From: Salisaeta longa DSM 21114
Lineage (GTDB): Bacteria > Bacteroidota > Rhodothermia > Rhodothermales > Salinibacteraceae
Direction of reading: 5' to 3'
Length of the DNA stretch: 64,000 nucleotides
Assembly: GCF_000419585.1 (NCBI RefSeq)
Contig: NZ_ATTH01000001.1
Location: 1,882,005-1,946,004 of the forward strand
Shown here: positions 5,065 through 43,871 of the stretch, in pieces
Layout: the number at the start of each line of letters is the position of its first letter
Position numbering within the stretch: the first letter of the stretch is position 1
The notes under the pieces: generated by a model
What the model saw: the letters and a program-made list of their open reading frames with translations, nothing else
What the model was told of the DNA's origin: nothing
The model's database searches: none
Translations under genes and position numbers: made by a program

Positions 5065-6714
5065 CTACGAGGCGTCTGCCGAGGCGAGGGCCGCGTCCTT
5101 AACCTCCACCAGATACGAAAGGGCCGCGTCCCAATCGTCGGGCAGAGCCGGGTCGTGGAAGATCGCCTCTTTCACGGCCCCCATGGCCCGGCGCTCGGGG
5201 CCCTGCAGGCGCTTCAGCATCTCCTGAAAGAGCGCGCCGCGCCGCAACGCTTCGTCTTTGATGTCCTGCAAGTACCGAAACGCCGCGTCGTGTTCGTTGG
5301 GAATCTCGCCCTCTAGGATGGCCTCGCGGATGTTCTCTTTGGCAATGCCCACCGCGGCGCCTTCCGAAATGCCCAGCGTCTCCATGATCTCGTACCCATC
5401 GACCGGCGGCTCAAAGTTGCGCAGCCGGTCCTTTTCCTCGACCGCGCGCATCTTTTCTTCCACCCGGTCAAACGCCCGCAGGTAGCGGCGGCGGCGGTGC
5501 GGGTTGCCGCTCGTTACGTCGGAGCGCACCAGCGTCATGAGGTCGTCGATGGCATCGCCCGCCTCGTAGAGCAAGCGGCGCACGGCCGAGTCGGTCACGT
5601 CGTCGTCCACCAGCGCAATGGGACGGTGGTGCAGGCGCACCATCTGCTGCACGTACTCCATGCGGCCGTCGAGGGGGAGCTTGAGGGCCCGGAAAAGATC
5701 CGGTACCATGCGGGCGCCTACCTCCTCGTGGCCATGAAACGTCCACCCTTCGGCCTTGGAGTAGCGCTTGGTTTGCGGCTTGGCGATGTCGTGAAAGAGC
5801 GCCGCCCACCGCAGCCAGCGCGTCTCCTCGGCCGGACGCTCCTTCACGCGCTCGGCGAGGTTGTCGAGCACCTTGAGCGTGTGGTAGAAGTTGTCCTTGT
5901 GGTCGCGGCCGTCGCGCACGTCTACGCCCTTTAGGGCTTGCACTTCGGGCAGGATGTGGGCCAGGATGCCGCTGCGCTCCAGCAGCTTAAAGCCCACCGA
6001 GGGCCGGTCGGTGACGATCAGCTTTTGCAGCTCGTCGGTGATGCGCTCCTGGGTGAGGATGTCGACGCGGCCCGCGTGGGCGCGCATGGCATCGGCCACG
6101 CGGTCGGCGACGCGAAATTCGAGCTGCGCCGCAAAGCGGGCCGCCCGTATCATGCGCAGCGGGTCGTCATCGAACGTAGCGTGCGGGTCGAGCGGTGTGT
6201 CAAGCCGGCGCCGCTGCAGGTCGGCGCGGCCGTCGAACGGGTCAATCAGGTCGCCAAACGCATCGGGCCACAGGTGCATGGCCATCGCGTTGATGGTAAA
6301 GTCGCGGCGGCGTTGGTCTTCCGCGAGGGTCGCGCTCTCCACCACGGGCTTGCGCGAGTCGCGGCGGTAGCTCTCGGTGCGCGCCGCCACAAACTCCAGC
6401 ACCAGCGTGTCGTCTGCCGCACCGGGCGCCGGCACGCGCACGGCTGCCGTGCCAAAGTTTGGATACACGTGCGCCGTGGTGCCGCCCACGGCATCGGCCA
6501 CCGCCTCAGCCAGTGCAATGCCGGTGCCCGCGCCCACCGTCACGCAGTCGATGTCCGTCGTGGGGCGCTTTAGCATCAGGTCGCGCACAAGTCCGCCTAC
6601 AGCATAGGCCGCAATGTCTTCGCGCGCCGCCACGCGGCCCACGCGGCGCAGCAACGGCCCGTAGGGTTGCGCATCGACACGAGCAGCCAGCGATTCAATC
6701 GTCGTAAAGCGCAT
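5065..6714 (-). CDS. tRNA nucleotidyltransferase / poly(A) polymerase family with HD domain
   Basis: 549 aa. N-terminal nucleotidyltransferase head with VGGLVRDLMLKRPTTDID (the G-loop and the DxD metal-binding pair), the RRRDFTINAMA motif and DDPLRMIRAARFAAQL of class II CCA-adding enzymes, then an HD phosphohydrolase domain (RWAALFHDIAKP, HGHEEVG). In this group the enzyme usually adds or repairs the tRNA CCA end. Adding the C-terminal HD domain is common. ATG 6714 (MRFTTIESLAARVD) is chosen because upstream in-frame sequence lacks family character. It converges tail to tail with tkt. CCA enzymes and poly(A) polymerases cannot be separated by eye. Confidence 0.9.
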   Translation of the reverse strand: MRFTTIESLAARVDAQPYGPLLRRVGRVAAREDIAAYAVGGLVRDLMLKRPTTDIDCVTVGAGTGIALAEAVADAVGGTTAHVYPNFGTAAVRVPAPGAADDTLVLEFVAARTESYRRDSRKPVVESATLAEDQRRRDFTINAMAMHLWPDAFGDLIDPFDGRADLQRRRLDTPLDPHATFDDDPLRMIRAARFAAQLEFRVADRVADAMRAHAGRVDILTQERITDELQKLIVTDRPSVGFKLLERSGILAHILPEVQALKGVDVRDGRDHKDNFYHTLKVLDNLAERVKERPAEETRWLRWAALFHDIAKPQTKRYSKAEGWTFHGHEEVGARMVPDLFRALKLPLDGRMEYVQQMVRLHHRPIALVDDDVTDSAVRRLLYEAGDAIDDLMTLVRSDVTSGNPHRRRRYLRAFDRVEEKMRAVEEKDRLRNFEPPVDGYEIMETLGISEGAAVGIAKENIREAILEGEIPNEHDAAFRYLQDIKDEALRRGALFQEMLKRLQGPERRAMGAVKEAIFHDPALPDDWDAALSYLVEVKDAALASADAS

Positions 6715-7113
6715 GAGGACAAGGCATCGGGCAGCGGATTCGGGGCATTCGGGGCTGCTTGAAACGTCAGCGGGGCGGCAGGCCTGTAGCGGGCGCCGCC
6801 GGTGCGGACTTCTCAAACAGGGCCATTAGTAGACGAACAGCCCGCCCGGTCGTTCAGCCGGGCCCGGTGCTTTTGCGGCGTTTTTGCGGAAGTTGGGTGC
6901 CGGCGGGCGCTCTATCGCAACGTCTACGTTCAGTCTGAGACAGTGAGCGGTCGAAGCAGCCTGCGGCGGAAGCGCGGTGCTGCAATAGAACGGAGCAGCA
7001 GCGTGGCCGGGCGCCATCCCCACACGGTTTTCAGAAAGCCCCCAGCACCTTCCGTCCGCTTGCTGCGTACGTTACGGCGTGTCGTTTGCTGCCCTACCAA
7101 CGCGAGGAATGCT
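6715..7113. other. Intergenic region between divergent genes
   Basis: No gene recognised. It must hold the promoters of the leftward nucleotidyltransferase and the rightward DoxX-like gene. One short hairpin is visible, GCCCGG at 6844-6849 paired with CCGGGC at 6858-6863. I looked for SRP, RNase P and tmRNA signatures and found none. Confidence 0.4.
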
Positions 7114-36008: not shown

Positions 36009-36905
36009 CTTTTTTGCGCTGCGCGTGCAGAGGGGCACACCAGCCCGAACAGTCACTTGAACTAAGCTCCGCACCATTTGCCTCCCCCAGCTTACCAGCC
36101 GCTCCCCCTCTTACGGGGAACATACCCGGCAGGAAGAGGGGACCATCACGTCGTTCGGCAGCGGGAACTGCTGGGGCGTCCCGGAAGGTGCAATTTCCGC
36201 AATGGGGCGTTCTTCTTCATACGGGGAGATTGCCAGGTCATTCGCATGCGCTCATTCCTCGCAATGACAAGGGAGGAATTTGCTGCTTTGATGCGTTGGG
36301 CGTGCAGATGGGCAGACCACCCCGAACGGCCATCTGAACCATCAACGCTCTATTTTTCATCAACCACTATTGTCATTGCGAGCGAACGCAGTGAGCGTGG
36401 CAATCTCCGCAACAAGGCGTTTCTGCCTGTACACGGAGATCGCCACGTTGCTCACTGCCGCTCGCGCCTCGCGATGACACATCAGTTTTTGCTGCTTTGA
36501 CACGTTGGGCGTGCATATGGGCACACCACCCCGGACGGCCATTTGAACCATCAACGCTCCATTTTTCATCAACCACTGTTGTCATTGCGAGGAGCGGAGC
36601 GACGTGGCAATCTCCGCAGTGGAGCGTTACGCTCCGTACATGGAGATCTCACCACAGGCATGACCTCCGGCCCCATCATAGATATGACCTTCGGCCCCCG
36701 CGTTATTCCCTCTGGTCGTTCCTCGCGATGACATATTGCTTTTTGCTGCTCTGTTGCGTTGCGCGTGCAGATGGGCGAACCACCCCAAACGGCCATCTGA
36801 ACTATCAACGCTTCATCTTTCATCAACCATTGTTGTCATTGCGAGGAGCGGAGCGACGTGGGGGCCCTTGGGTCATGCTTGAAAGCGCAATCTCCCCAGC
36901 CGGGC
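36009..36905 (-). repeat. Mosaic interspersed repeats, locus D (about four units, reverse orientation)
   Basis: Successive units each hold GATGCGTTGGGCGTGCAGAT-type and CCATCTGAACCATCAACGCT-type blocks followed by a palindrome whose left arm reads TGTCATTGCGAG then GTGGCAATCTCC and whose right arm reads GGAGATCGCCACG then CGCGATGACA. The clearest palindrome is at 36371-36479; others start near 36581 and 36839, and a first one ends near 36272. Compared with copies A-C the orientation is reversed and the unit is repeated in tandem. Confidence 0.85.
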
Positions 36906-37258: not shown

Positions 37259-37604
37259 GTCGGAAGTCTTGCCTCCATTCCAAGAGGATTGAAACGTATA
37301 ACTCATGTCCTTCTTTAAACGCAAGTCTTTCTGCTTGTCGGAAGTCTTGCCTCCATTCCAAGAGGATTGAAACGCCTCGACGACCGCCAAGACGTTTCCG
37401 TCTTGACCCTCGTCGGAAGTCTTGCCTCCATTCCAAGAGGATTGAAACAGGTTGGAATCTAATCCGACCTGCGGAAGATCAAGAGCCTGTCGGAAGTCTT
37501 GCCTCCATTCCAAGAGGATTGAAACACATACGACGGCCCCGGTTTTCTACCTTCCCGTCTCGTCCTGGTCGGAAGTCTTGCCTCCATTCCAAGAGGATTG
37601 ATGG
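37259..37604 (+). CRISPR. CRISPR array, five 37-bp repeats and four spacers
   Basis: Repeats at 37259-37295, 37337-37373, 37412-37448, 37489-37525 and 37568-37604. Each begins GTCGGAAGTCTTGCC and ends AAGAGGATTGAAAC, with a short internal stem CCTC/GAGG. The first four are identical; the fifth departs from the consensus in its last four positions (ATGG for AAAC), which marks the distal end. Spacers are 41, 38, 40 and 42 bp and are unrelated to one another. The ATTGAAAC end is typical of the 5' handle in type I and type III systems, so transcription is probably rightward. No cas gene lies in the window. Confidence 0.96.
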
Positions 37605-40469: not shown

Positions 40470-40540
40470 TGTCCGGTGCACGCGGCGTGTTGCGCTACAA
40501 GACCATGCAACAGACACGCAAACAAATCCATCAGGGGGTC

Positions 40541-41149
40541 ATGCAACACTCCGCTATACGCAGCGCACGCCACACCTTTTTTCTCATGCTCATCGCGGCC
40601 ATCGGCCTTGTCGGATGCGATTCGGCCCAAGATGAAGCCACCGACCGCATCGGCCCCGGGGGCGACGGCTCGGTCTCGGTTTCAGGAAACGCCAGCAACG
40701 TTGTGGGCTTCGACGGCCGCGCCTTCTTCGCAACCGAAGCCGACCTAAACGCCATCGACGAGAGCTCTGGATTTTCGCTCGTCGTGTTCGATGTATCTGC
40801 CGAGGACACCCTCCTCGTGGCCTTTGGCCGCGACGCCGCAGGGCTTCCAAGCGAAGGAGACCACACCATTTCGTCAGACCCCACCGACCAGCAGTTTATC
40901 GGTCTGTACTACCACGGCACCGCCGCAACCAGCACATTAGCAGGGTCCCAAAGCGGCACCATGTCGTTCACGCGTATCGGCAGCGACGAGGTCGAAGGGT
41001 CATTTTCGTTTGATGGACAGGCCTTCGACCTACGCAACTTTTCCGGCCAGCCGGAAGCGATGTCTGCTGAAGGCACGTTTACCGCAGAGCGGGTGACAGA
41101 AGAGGACGTACGGGAACTCCAAGACCTGTTTGGCGACATTGGCTCGTGA
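40541..41149 (+). CDS. Predicted lipoprotein, unknown function
   Basis: 202 aa. Lipoprotein signal MQHSAIRSARHTFFLMLIAA followed by lipobox IGLVGC with Cys 26, then an acidic beta-rich domain (VVGFDGRAFFATEADLNAID, SFTRIGSDEVEGSFSFDGQAF). It is similar in style to DUF6252-type lipoproteins of Bacteroidota but is not firmly assignable. An upstream ATG at 40505 is in frame; 40541 gives a better signal peptide. A hairpin at 41209-41247 follows. Confidence 0.75.
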   Translation: MQHSAIRSARHTFFLMLIAAIGLVGCDSAQDEATDRIGPGGDGSVSVSGNASNVVGFDGRAFFATEADLNAIDESSGFSLVVFDVSAEDTLLVAFGRDAAGLPSEGDHTISSDPTDQQFIGLYYHGTAATSTLAGSQSGTMSFTRIGSDEVEGSFSFDGQAFDLRNFSGQPEAMSAEGTFTAERVTEEDVRELQDLFGDIGS

Positions 41150-41208: not shown

Positions 41209-41247
41209 CCAAACCCTTCGCTCGGGCTTTCCAAGCGGAGGGTTTGG
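41209..41247. terminator. Shared hairpin between converging genes
   Basis: CCAAACCCT at 41209-41217 pairs with AGGGTTTGG at 41239-41247, extended by CGCT/AGCG. It lies between the stop of the lipoprotein gene and, 2 bp away, the stop of the leftward acidic ORF, so it probably ends transcription from both sides. Confidence 0.55.
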
Positions 41248-41249
41248 GC

Positions 41250-41441
41250 TTAGTATTCGTCGTCAAGGTAGTAATCGTCGAAGTCCTCGTCGAGGTCATC
41301 GTACGAGTAGTCGTCGTCGAAGTAGGGATCTTCCTCGTCGTAGAAGTCATCCTCGGCGGTATCGCCAAAGTACTCGTCTTCCATGAACGGATCGTCGGCG
41401 AAGAGAGGCTCTTCGGCAAATTCTGGATCGTCGTAGAACAT
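41250..41441 (-). CDS. Extremely acidic microprotein
   Basis: 63 aa from ATG 41441 (MFYDDPEFAEE), or 71 aa from 41465. By my count it has 21 Asp and 10 Glu, 17 Phe/Tyr, and no Lys, Arg or His, giving a net charge near -31. Short acidic-aromatic repeats (DDPF, EDEYF, DDFY, DDDYSYDD) run the whole length; no fold is recognised. The clean stop right at a shared hairpin and the strong bias support a real gene. It lies downstream of nhaC on the same strand, 276 bp away. Confidence 0.6.
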   Translation of the reverse strand: MFYDDPEFAEEPLFADDPFMEDEYFGDTAEDDFYDEEDPYFDDDYSYDDLDEDFDDYYLDDEY

Positions 41442-41465
41442 GATCGTCTGGGGTGTTTGGGGCAA

Positions 41466-41717
41466 TTAAGGGGCTGTGCGAAACGATGCGCACTGTTTTT
41501 CCGATCGACGCCGGGGCCTCCAGCGGAGTTCCGCTGCCTGCGCGTTCGCCGCAATGGGGCGCACGTTTCGCCGATGTTTCACGGGAGGAAGCAGCGGCGC
41601 GTAGCATCGGCCGGGACGCATCAACATCCGTGTGCGTGCGGCCGTGTGCTTCAGTCGTTGCCCTATGCGCCCACGGAGGTTTGGCGCAAGAGCGGCGTCG
41701 CTTCTTGGATGGCGGGG
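41466..41717. other. Intergenic between nhaC and the acidic ORF
   Basis: No gene or repeat copy recognised. It probably carries the promoter of the acidic ORF. Confidence 0.3.
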
Positions 41718-43148
41718 TTACGCCATCAGGTAGCCCGCCACGAGGAACGCGGCCCCCGCGGCGCCCGCCTGACACAAGGCGTACGGCATTTGGGTGCGCA
41801 CGTGGTCGACGTGGTCGCAGGCCGACGCCATCGACGCGATGATCGACGTATCGGAAAGCGGCGAGGCGTGATCGCCAAACAGCCCGCCCGACAGCACCGC
41901 CCCCAGCAGCAGCGGTGGCGGAAGCCCTACGCCCGCAGCCAGCGGAAGCGCCACCGGCACCATCAGCGCAAACGCCGTCCACGAGGAGCCCAGCGTAAAC
42001 GAGATGACGGCCCCCGCCAGGTAGACGGCCGCTGGGACCCACCACGTAGGCCCGCCGCTGCCCACCAACGAAACCACGTAGGCGCCCATCTGCAGGGCGT
42101 CGGCCACATTGCCGAGGGTAAACGCCAGGAGCAAGAGCAGGATCACAGGCACCAGGCCGGAGGCGCCTTTCACGGCCCACTCCATCGAGGTGGATATGGA
42201 AAGCGTCGCGGAGCCCCGCGGGAACGGGTGCGGCAGCGCATACAGGCCCATGGCACCGGCCACGGCTACCGCTACGCCCCAGTACACCGCCGTAGAGCCG
42301 CTGCCCTGCATGATCGAGCCACCGCCTGTAATCCACAGCCCCAGGAGCACCATGGCAACCAGCAGCCCAAGCGGTGCGATGAGCGCTATGGGCCGCGGGT
42401 CTACGTGATCGGGCGGTTCAATGTCGGCCACCGAGGCGTCCACCATGGGCTGACTGCCGGGCCGCGTGAGCTGGCCCGCGGCGGCACGCGCTTCAGCGGT
42501 GCGCATCGCCCCAAAGCCGGCCCCGGTGAGGGCCAGCACCAGAGCAAATCCGATCGCGAACCATGCAAAGAAGTTGTACAGGAGCGCCTCGGCCAGCAAC
42601 GCCACCGCGCCGGTGGTGACGCCCTGCGCCGCAATGAGCCCCAGAACGTACGCGCCCCATCCGTTAAACGGAATCGACATGCACACCGGCGCACACGTGG
42701 CATCGCAGTAGTACGCGAGCTTCTCGCGCGGCAGGTTCAGCCGGTCGAAGAAGGGACGGGCAACCGACCCAACGGTGAGCGACGAGAGGTTCGACTCCAC
42801 AAACACCAGCACGCCGGTGCACCAAGCCAGCAACTCGGCGCTGCGACGCGTTTGCCCCCAGCCGCGGCGCTGCGTCCACGCAATAAAGCCGCGCACCCCG
42901 CCAGAAACCTGCACCAGCGCAATCAGGCTGCCCACCAGCAGCGAAAAGAGCAACACGCGCGTGCTGCTCTCCGACTGAAAGACCGCGACAATTTGCGCTG
43001 CCATCTCGCGCAGCCCCGCCAGCGGATTGCCGCCCACCAGCAGCGTCGTGCCCAGGTACACCCCCGCTAGCAGGCCCAAAAACACCTGGCGCGTCCACAG
43101 CACGAGCACAATGGCCACTACCGGCGGCAGCAAGACAAGCCAGTCCAT
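41718..43148 (-). CDS. Na+/H+ antiporter, NhaC family
   Basis: 476 aa with about eleven membrane helices. Conserved NhaC-family segments include VFVESNLSSLTVGSVARPFFD, CDATCAPVCMSIPFNGWGAY, FTLGSSWTAFALMVP and GGLFGDHASPLSDTSIIASMA. It exchanges sodium for protons across the inner membrane, which suits a salt-exposed organism. It begins 78 bp after the thioredoxin-like gene on the same strand. Confidence 0.9.
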   Translation of the reverse strand: MDWLVLLPPVVAIVLVLWTRQVFLGLLAGVYLGTTLLVGGNPLAGLREMAAQIVAVFQSESSTRVLLFSLLVGSLIALVQVSGGVRGFIAWTQRRGWGQTRRSAELLAWCTGVLVFVESNLSSLTVGSVARPFFDRLNLPREKLAYYCDATCAPVCMSIPFNGWGAYVLGLIAAQGVTTGAVALLAEALLYNFFAWFAIGFALVLALTGAGFGAMRTAEARAAAGQLTRPGSQPMVDASVADIEPPDHVDPRPIALIAPLGLLVAMVLLGLWITGGGSIMQGSGSTAVYWGVAVAVAGAMGLYALPHPFPRGSATLSISTSMEWAVKGASGLVPVILLLLLAFTLGNVADALQMGAYVVSLVGSGGPTWWVPAAVYLAGAVISFTLGSSWTAFALMVPVALPLAAGVGLPPPLLLGAVLSGGLFGDHASPLSDTSIIASMASACDHVDHVRTQMPYALCQAGAAGAAFLVAGYLMA

Positions 43149-43226
43149 ACAGCGAGGAGATGGGAGCTACGAAGGATTGGGGGGTGAAGCGGTAAGCAGC
43201 CCGCGCACGCACGCGCTGGGCCTTGC

Positions 43227-43817
43227 TTAGGCCGGTGCGTTCCCCGGCGCCCACTTGATGTTGCACCCCATCGAGGGCTTCTGATCGGCAGACACGGTGC
43301 CCGTCTCCAGCAAATCGTCGAGCGCCGCCTTCAGGTCGCCGCCGTGCGCTGCGCCGCCGCGCTTGGGCGAGGTCTCGTCGAAGCGCCCGCGGTACACCAG
43401 CGTCCGGTCGGCATCGTACACGAAAATGTCGGGCGTGCACACCGCGCCATACGCCTTGGCAACCGCTTGGGTGGGATCGTGGAGGTACGGGAACGAATAG
43501 TTGTGCGCCTCGGCCCGCTGCGCCATCGCCTCGAAGTTGTCTTGCGGGTACTGCTCCGGGTCGTTTGAGCAGATGCCAACAAACTGCACCCCACGCGCCT
43601 GATAGGAGCGCGCAACGTCGACCAGCGCGTCTTCGATGTGCTGCACATACGGGCAGTGGTTGCACATAAACACGATGACGAGCGCCTCGGCGTCATCAAA
43701 ATCCGACAGCGCGCGGGTGTCGCCGGCGCGGTCGTCAACCGACGGATTGGCAATAGGGAGTTCGAAGGCCGGGGCCGTCTGCCCCAGCTCTTCCATGATA
43801 GATTCCGTGAGAGCCAT
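43227..43817 (-). CDS. Thioredoxin-fold peroxiredoxin-like (AhpC/TSA) protein
   Basis: 196 aa. VIVFMCNHCPYVQHIEDALVD holds a CxxC pair at the helix start, followed by GVQFVGICSNDPEQYPQDNFE and the cis-Pro strand VCTPDIFVYDADRTLVYRG. This matches the thioredoxin-family/redoxin group with a CNHCPYV motif, which act as thiol oxidoreductases. It follows the DUF2237 gene by 54 bp. Confidence 0.88.
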   Translation of the reverse strand: MALTESIMEELGQTAPAFELPIANPSVDDRAGDTRALSDFDDAEALVIVFMCNHCPYVQHIEDALVDVARSYQARGVQFVGICSNDPEQYPQDNFEAMAQRAEAHNYSFPYLHDPTQAVAKAYGAVCTPDIFVYDADRTLVYRGRFDETSPKRGGAAHGGDLKAALDDLLETGTVSADQKPSMGCNIKWAPGNAPA

Positions 43818-43871
43818 AACAAGTACGTTGGTTTGGTGAATACGTCGGCGATGAAAGAAAGCCGGGCACTT

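Follow-up and report, generated by a model that had tools for sequence, protein, structure and literature searches.

The window analyzed here, a stretch of 64,000 nucleotides from the genome of Salisaeta longa DSM 21114, contains a 63-codon ORF that encodes a microprotein composed largely of acidic and aromatic residues. Proteins of the same kind (63-87 aa) were identified in other Rhodothermales, on the same strand and upstream of nrdJ, the gene for class II ribonucleotide reductase. In this bacterial gene family, selection acts on a chain in which acidic and aromatic residues predominate; sequences of this class escape standard searches because they are treated as low complexity. Since an apparent conserved family is thus present beside nrdJ in related bacteria, the window ORF very probably represents a genuine gene. 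That the window copy belongs to the nrdJ-locus family is supported but not proven. The features discussed below are listed in Table 1.

Table 1. Coordinates of the features in the window, with strand and basis of assignment
Feature	Position	Strand	Description and basis
Convergent lipoprotein-like gene	40505..41149	+	ORF; lipobox-like LIAAIGLVGC read by eye; start at 40505 or 40541
Hairpin between microprotein stop and convergent gene	41209..41247	.	Arms 41209-41225 and 41231-41247, 17 nt, 88% complementary
Acidic-aromatic microprotein gene	41250..41441	-	63 aa + TAA, ATG start; translation, composition, relatives at nrdJ loci, start-site profile
Three in-frame 18-nt repeats	41389..41438	-	N-terminal (D/E)(D/E)P-x-hydrophobic units; repeat search, spacing 18 and 18
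Leader before microprotein ATG	41442..41469	-	TTAATTGCCCCAAACACCCCAGACGATC; CCAAA shared with genus g11 members
NhaC-type Na+/H+ antiporter, upstream neighbor	41718..43148	-	PF03553, E 6.8e-34
tRNA nucleotidyltransferase-like gene	5065..6816	-	Relatives at nrdJ loci of other Rhodothermales, tblastn

The microprotein gene and its surroundings

Translation and residue counts confirmed the composition given in the first-pass annotation: the 63 residues include 31 acids (21 D and 10 E) and 17 aromatics (8 F and 9 Y), with no K, R or H. The predicted charge is approximately -31 and the predicted pI approximately 4. We scanned 464 kb of the window genome, consisting of the window and twenty 20-kb stretches, for comparable composition. 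Across 4024 stop-to-stop frames 63 aa or longer, the richest 63-aa stretch was the microprotein, with 48 D/E/F/Y/W residues; the runner-up had 29, and the composition is therefore more than chance. Considering that C, T, A and G all occur at the third position of the acid codons (14, 7, 5 and 5 times, respectively) and that the 18-nt repeat is not matched at third codon positions, whose likeness at lag 6 was not above chance, a young trinucleotide expansion is unlikely. It had also been claimed that the aromatics occur regularly, which could be upheld in part: spacings of 5-7 residues between hydrophobic positions, as opposed to 2-4, are commoner than in shuffles (P 0.0015; P 0.003 for the aromatics alone), by a statistic picked post hoc once autocorrelation had been seen, whereas the best-lag residue identity showed no significance (P 0.23). 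The microprotein is probably a disordered chain; AlphaFold, run on the single sequence, predicted no secondary structure (mean pLDDT 57), as would be expected of one.

Using a start-site profile built from 253 long-ORF starts, we found that the sequence upstream of the microprotein ATG outscored 96% of 13184 ATGs and lay at the 60th percentile among the 253 starts themselves. The CCAAA of the leader also occurs before the ATG in the five members from genus g11, which is possibly Rhodothermus, and CAAAC was not enriched before gene starts of the window genome (2.0% vs 2.3% of ATGs). No Shine-Dalgarno-like stretch was present before the microprotein ATG, and the same was true of most of ten other start sites inspected, among which only the alternative lipoprotein start was G-rich. 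Neither a TAnnTTTG motif nor a promoter of the sigma-70 type was found before the gene, and Rfam had no match in the window between 36 and 47 kb.

As had been claimed, the ORF ends at a hairpin shared with a convergent gene: the hairpin begins 2 nt past the microprotein stop codon and 59 nt beyond the stop of the lipoprotein-like gene, for which there was no Pfam family above the cut-off and no NCBIfam family. It is a single copy in the window genome, with folding z-scores of -6.9 (minus strand) and -6.5 (plus strand), and is not directly followed by a T run; it is a probable two-way terminator. Ten similarly strong intergenic hairpins were identified elsewhere in the 464 kb, five in co-directional gaps, one in a divergent gap and four in convergent gaps, the last being 4 of the 41 convergent gaps scored. 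It should be noted that the orientation of these gaps comes from a crude ORF picker: the flanks of one of the four convergent cases (in L059) scored otherwise in a separate scoring, and the window hairpin itself was mislabeled as co-directional, a spurious antisense frame having hidden the antiporter.

The antiporter gene ends 276 bp upstream of the microprotein gene on the same strand, which is the position that the first-pass annotation had described. However, this association is not conserved. Relatives of the antiporter were present in 57 of 60 genomes, and no comparable microprotein was found within 1.5 kb of 30 antiporter loci (the window's own excepted; neighbors were listed for 17 loci) or in 336 kb around 34 such loci. 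The pairing of the antiporter with a redoxin gene (window 41718-43871) was kept in 24 of the 34 loci of relatives. Elsewhere in the window there is a CRISPR-like array (37259-37604) with five repeats, four of them exact and 37 nt long and one degenerate, and with spacers of 38-42 nt; it had no match to phages, and 35 copies of its repeat are distributed over several clusters in the genome. Beside it lie imperfect direct repeats of up to 146 nt (36400-36861).

A microprotein family at nrdJ loci

Searches of the BLAST and HMMER types with the window protein as a single query were negative. It matched only itself in its own genome and in 394 genomes of the phylum, and among 60 relatives it gave two weak matches, both inside large frames. 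No match was obtained in Pfam, PHROGs, NCBIfam or PDB, in plasmids by blastn of the locus, or in phages and plasmids by tblastn (weak evidence, as the low-complexity filter was on), and of the pattern stretches found in genome contigs (46) and viral contigs (4) none was confirmed. These negatives were misleading, since the 60 relatives included G001, G003 and G010, all of which have members of the family. Among the sets searched, which contained relatives named as Salinibacter, Salinivenus, Roseithermus and Rhodothermales MAGs, there was no second genome of the window's genus.

Codon patterns were used as well. The first matched in 5 other relatives of the 60 and the second in 14 other genomes of 114, neither revealing a comparable protein. 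The third (D/E-D/E-D/E-F/Y-D/E-D/E-F/Y) matched at least 135 of the 394 phylum genomes and was rerun on 14 chosen genomes; 30 loci per scan were read in two scans, most of them ordinary proteins or acidic stretches. Among the loci read, five genomes of genus g11 had 40-residue stretches made purely of D/E/F/Y, and G032 had a stretch with 39 of 40. A large gene was common to the neighborhoods of these loci, and in L304 and L303, both of which were scanned, it is the vitamin B12-dependent ribonucleotide reductase (NCBIfam NF005122). A search for NrdJ in 30 chosen genomes, the window's included, gave a match in 21, two of them weak. In a pattern scan of viral sequences, 80 loci read among the matches listed included a single phage ORF of similar composition (L151:5884-6063 (+); 59 aa, 37% D+E, 22% aromatics), which has no similarity to the window protein beyond composition.

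When the nrdJ region of the window genome is excluded, a member was present in 10 of 22 nrdJ regions, and none was seen in the remaining 12, where some contigs are short (approximately 1.4 kb upstream in G013). Six of the ten regions (G028, G042, G203, G052, G111 and G032) had been examined because of a pattern match there, and the members in G001, G003, G010 and G033 were found at nrdJ independently of the pattern. The nrdJ-locus members span four families (f1, f3, f7 and f8). D+E content is 56-64% in members from f3, f7 and f8 and 42-49% in those from f1, the window's own family, where G003, G010 and G001 encode members of 63-68 aa. Two of these three start with MFYDE; the window protein starts with MFYDD. 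The terminal residue is F or Y in 11 of 11 members, adjoining an acid or two residues past one, and the C-terminal ends are EEEEEF, DEEEEF, DEEETF, DDEEAF, DDDDDY, DDLSDY, DDLEDY, DFDEDF and DDEY. The chance of a terminal aromatic in six lineages is approximately 1 in 10,000, as calculated post hoc from aromatic fractions of 0.18-0.27 with the lineages taken as independent. In G003, a second acidic-aromatic frame (L292, G003:C2:454461; 115 aa stop to stop) lies at another locus and ends in DEDEED rather than in an aromatic residue.

Two close pairs indicate strong selection on the reading frame and on the acidic-aromatic sequence it encodes: dN/dS was 0.08 for G003/G010 (differences at codon positions 1/2/3 of 7/4/27 over 66 codons) and 0.04 for G028/G042 (0/3/27 over 84 codons). 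Of eight further pairs, six were saturated at synonymous sites, and the values for G001/G010 (0.36) and for the window copy with G003 (0.47) were both obtained on uncertain alignments. Thus, as to whether close relatives conserve the frame, on which the first-pass annotation had staked its proposal, probable homologues are found in the same family with strong purifying selection between two of them, although not beside the antiporter.

Members from f3, f7 and f8 resemble each other (P 0.002 for G028/G033 and G032/G033, 0.014 for G028/G032). In contrast, G001 and G032 showed no similarity above shuffles (P 0.36), so that members from f1 and f7 are joined by place and kind and not by sequence. 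In 16 of the 22 regions, nine with a member and seven without, nrdJ is preceded by a divergent gene of approximately 134 aa (L343:1813-2214 (+) and relatives), which has SAYPxPxxFxVxRPxY near its start and belongs to no Pfam family. As to nrdJ itself, the frame at L303:1326-5390 is interrupted by a probable intein (TIGR01445 match), and for the window genome a single 1397-aa frame (G000:C1:2200723-2204820) contains the NrdJ match in separate parts, again with a probable intein.

When 10 of the 11 members were compared with Pfam, NCBIfam and PHROGs, no match was obtained at E up to 0.1, and a literature search of titles and abstract openings, which left most subscription journals uncovered, returned no paper on the family. 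Within what was searched, this bacterial acidic-aromatic family thus appears to be undescribed; small disordered polyanions that contain aromatics are, as a kind, already known from eukaryotes.

Relationship of the window copy to the family

Comparison with the three f1 members provided the clearest similarity: the window protein scored above composition-preserving shuffles in global alignment (P 0.012, 0.002 and 0.006) and in local alignment (P 0.016, 0.004 and 0.028), these shuffles preserving composition but not spacing and the P values being uncorrected across ten comparisons. For G042 the values were 0.04 (local) and 0.02 (global) and for G028 0.04 and 0.07, and the remaining five (G033, G032, G203, G052 and G111) were not above shuffles (P 0.10-0.45). 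Eight unrelated acidic-aromatic controls gave a global P of 0.028 in one case and 0.36-0.64 in seven, with local values of 0.05-0.65. Homology of the window copy to members from f3, f7 and f8 is hardly supported by sequence. The window copy nonetheless lies within the limits of the family (63-87 aa, D+E of at least 42%, aromatics of at least 18%, no more than two K/R/H and a terminal F or Y), which were derived from the members themselves.

In the window genome, nrdJ is located at approximately 2.20 Mb, some 280 kb from the microprotein gene, and 16 kb read around it contained neither a member nor the ~134-aa neighbor. Relatives of the window gene at 5065..6816, which we presume to be tRNA nucleotidyltransferase, were found at 57-72% identity at 11 of 19 nrdJ loci (19 of the 22 were searched) and at none of 34 antiporter loci. 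Other window genes also have relatives at nrdJ loci: three at that of G003, and one at those of G002 and G009; at the 34 antiporter loci, tblastn revealed no relatives of window genes beyond the antiporter and redoxin region. The simplest reading would be that a rearrangement separated nrdJ and the microprotein in the window lineage.

Possible functions of the microprotein

By analogy, we tentatively propose that the microprotein is a disordered polyanionic docking or nucleic-acid-mimic peptide that might work like DSS1 or the SSB tail. Its acidic spacers would hold out aromatic anchors, the free acidic-aromatic C terminus would supply one further anchor, and the chain would attach to nucleic-acid-binding proteins at surfaces that are basic and lined with aromatics, where it could act as a competitor or mimic of single-stranded nucleic acid in the manner of DSS1 and SSB tails. 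The usual place beside nrdJ hints at a role in DNA replication or repair, and the microprotein need not act on NrdJ, because the two genes are so far apart in the window genome. We favor such a role because of a lead to DSS1, the contact of DSS1 with RAD52, the SSB tips and the SSB of the window genome itself (G000:C1:2533706), which ends in DDDLPF.

The lead came from a profile of 10 of the 11 members, for which, among all PDB chains, only DSS1/SEM1 matched with an E of 1 or less; with values of 0.11-0.13 (non-significant, with strong bias), this is not homology. Nucleic-acid mimicry, which the first-pass annotation had suggested, is a reasonable idea given these sole matches. Its version as an anti-defense or nucleoid-protein inhibitor found no support: the relatives lie at a chromosomal locus with ordinary genes, and phages and plasmids gave no match, a result weakened by the filter. 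The eukaryotic DSS1/SEM1 (PF05160) is similar in that it is small (70 aa), very acidic with aromatics in its acidic stretch and, according to the literature, disordered. According to PMC6954417, this stretch contacts RAD52 and bears seven aromatics, the tryptophans of human DSS1 being W27, W39 and W43. DSS1 differs from the window protein in having W and K/R/H, 39% rather than 49% acid and no 5-7 spacing. With the Pfam DSS1 model, which recovered a control DSS1 at 2.7e-23, there was no match to the window protein (E up to 10) or to 10 of the 11 members (E up to 0.1); the pairwise E was 0.15, and the alignment did not exceed shuffles (P 0.14 and 0.36). Acidic aromatic-pair motifs are also reported to bind ubiquitin, though weakly (PMC9381478).

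SSB tips are reported to bind many proteins via an acidic end and terminal Phe, the E. coli tip being MDFDDDIPF (PMC7913777). The likeness lies in an acidic run closed by a terminal aromatic. However, the microprotein is free-standing with an acidic chain several-fold longer, Pfam detected no OB-fold (PF00436) in the window protein, and the terminal Pro-Phe of the SSB tip is absent from the member ends.

DNA mimics of the kind represented by sigma70 region 1.1 and T4 Arn are generally folded. Both are named in PMC8509808; such mimics are likewise highly negative and proposed to occupy nucleic-acid-binding sites, but those named there come from phages or are portions of larger proteins, whereas the microprotein family is chromosomal and probably disordered. 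Disordered D/E-rich repeats of eukaryotic DNA- and RNA-binding proteins compete with DNA (PMC10250230); they are segments of larger proteins, and the microprotein is an acidic-aromatic stretch throughout.

A bolder form of the docking proposal, which we regard as doubtful, is a bacterial DSS1 that would have evolved independently in Rhodothermales: a conserved, free-standing, disordered mimic of single-stranded DNA with a terminal aromatic anchor, escorting or handing over SSB, recombination or ribonucleotide-reductase partners. If the family is DSS1-like, it would offer a simple bacterial system for studying how disordered polyanions steer DNA-binding proteins, and more such families might be hidden in genomes.

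Small disordered proteins such as Sml1 and Spd1 restrain the yeast ribonucleotide reductase. A dedicated regulator of NrdJ working in the same way seems unlikely, even though members lie upstream of nrdJ on its strand in 10 of 22 regions across four families, with none in the 336 kb around antiporter loci. Besides the 12 regions where no member was seen and the distance of ~280 kb in the window genome, terminator-like hairpins with T runs, read by eye, follow the microprotein stop in g11 members, which therefore look like separate transcription units. Nine of nine genomes of genus g8 (Salinibacter-type) had neither a strong NrdJ match nor a member, but the lack of a member relies on patterns that also missed known members.

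The halophilic setting raises a different possibility, namely that the protein buffers salt or cations, or serves as a soluble polyanion in support of a high-salt cytoplasm, with little sequence-specific function. High KCl and acidic proteins are described for the Salinibacter-like group, and high KCl is reported for Salisaeta longa (PMC3817357); relatives of the window genome include such halophiles, and basic residues are absent from the protein. We consider this improbable, as the more acidic members belong to f3, f7 and f8 and not to the halophile family f1, and the conserved terminal aromatic together with dN/dS of 0.04-0.08 demands more than charge. Slightly more improbable is a phase-separating sticker-and-spacer protein with evenly spaced aromatics: a net charge of about -31 opposes self-association, and the post hoc 5-7 spacing that would suit it was missing in DSS1 and phage ORF L151 and was computed, among family members, for the window protein. 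Finally, that the window copy is a non-coding or untranslated low-complexity repeat, even if its relatives are genes, is very improbable, since the missing Shine-Dalgarno-like stretch (shared with most other starts inspected), the lack of a congeneric genome in the sets searched and a 12-nt repeat called by TRF are set against an open frame, a start-site score that ranks among the highest 5% of ATGs, third positions without repetition at lag 6, a hairpin 2 nt past the stop and global similarity to members of the same family at P 0.002-0.012.
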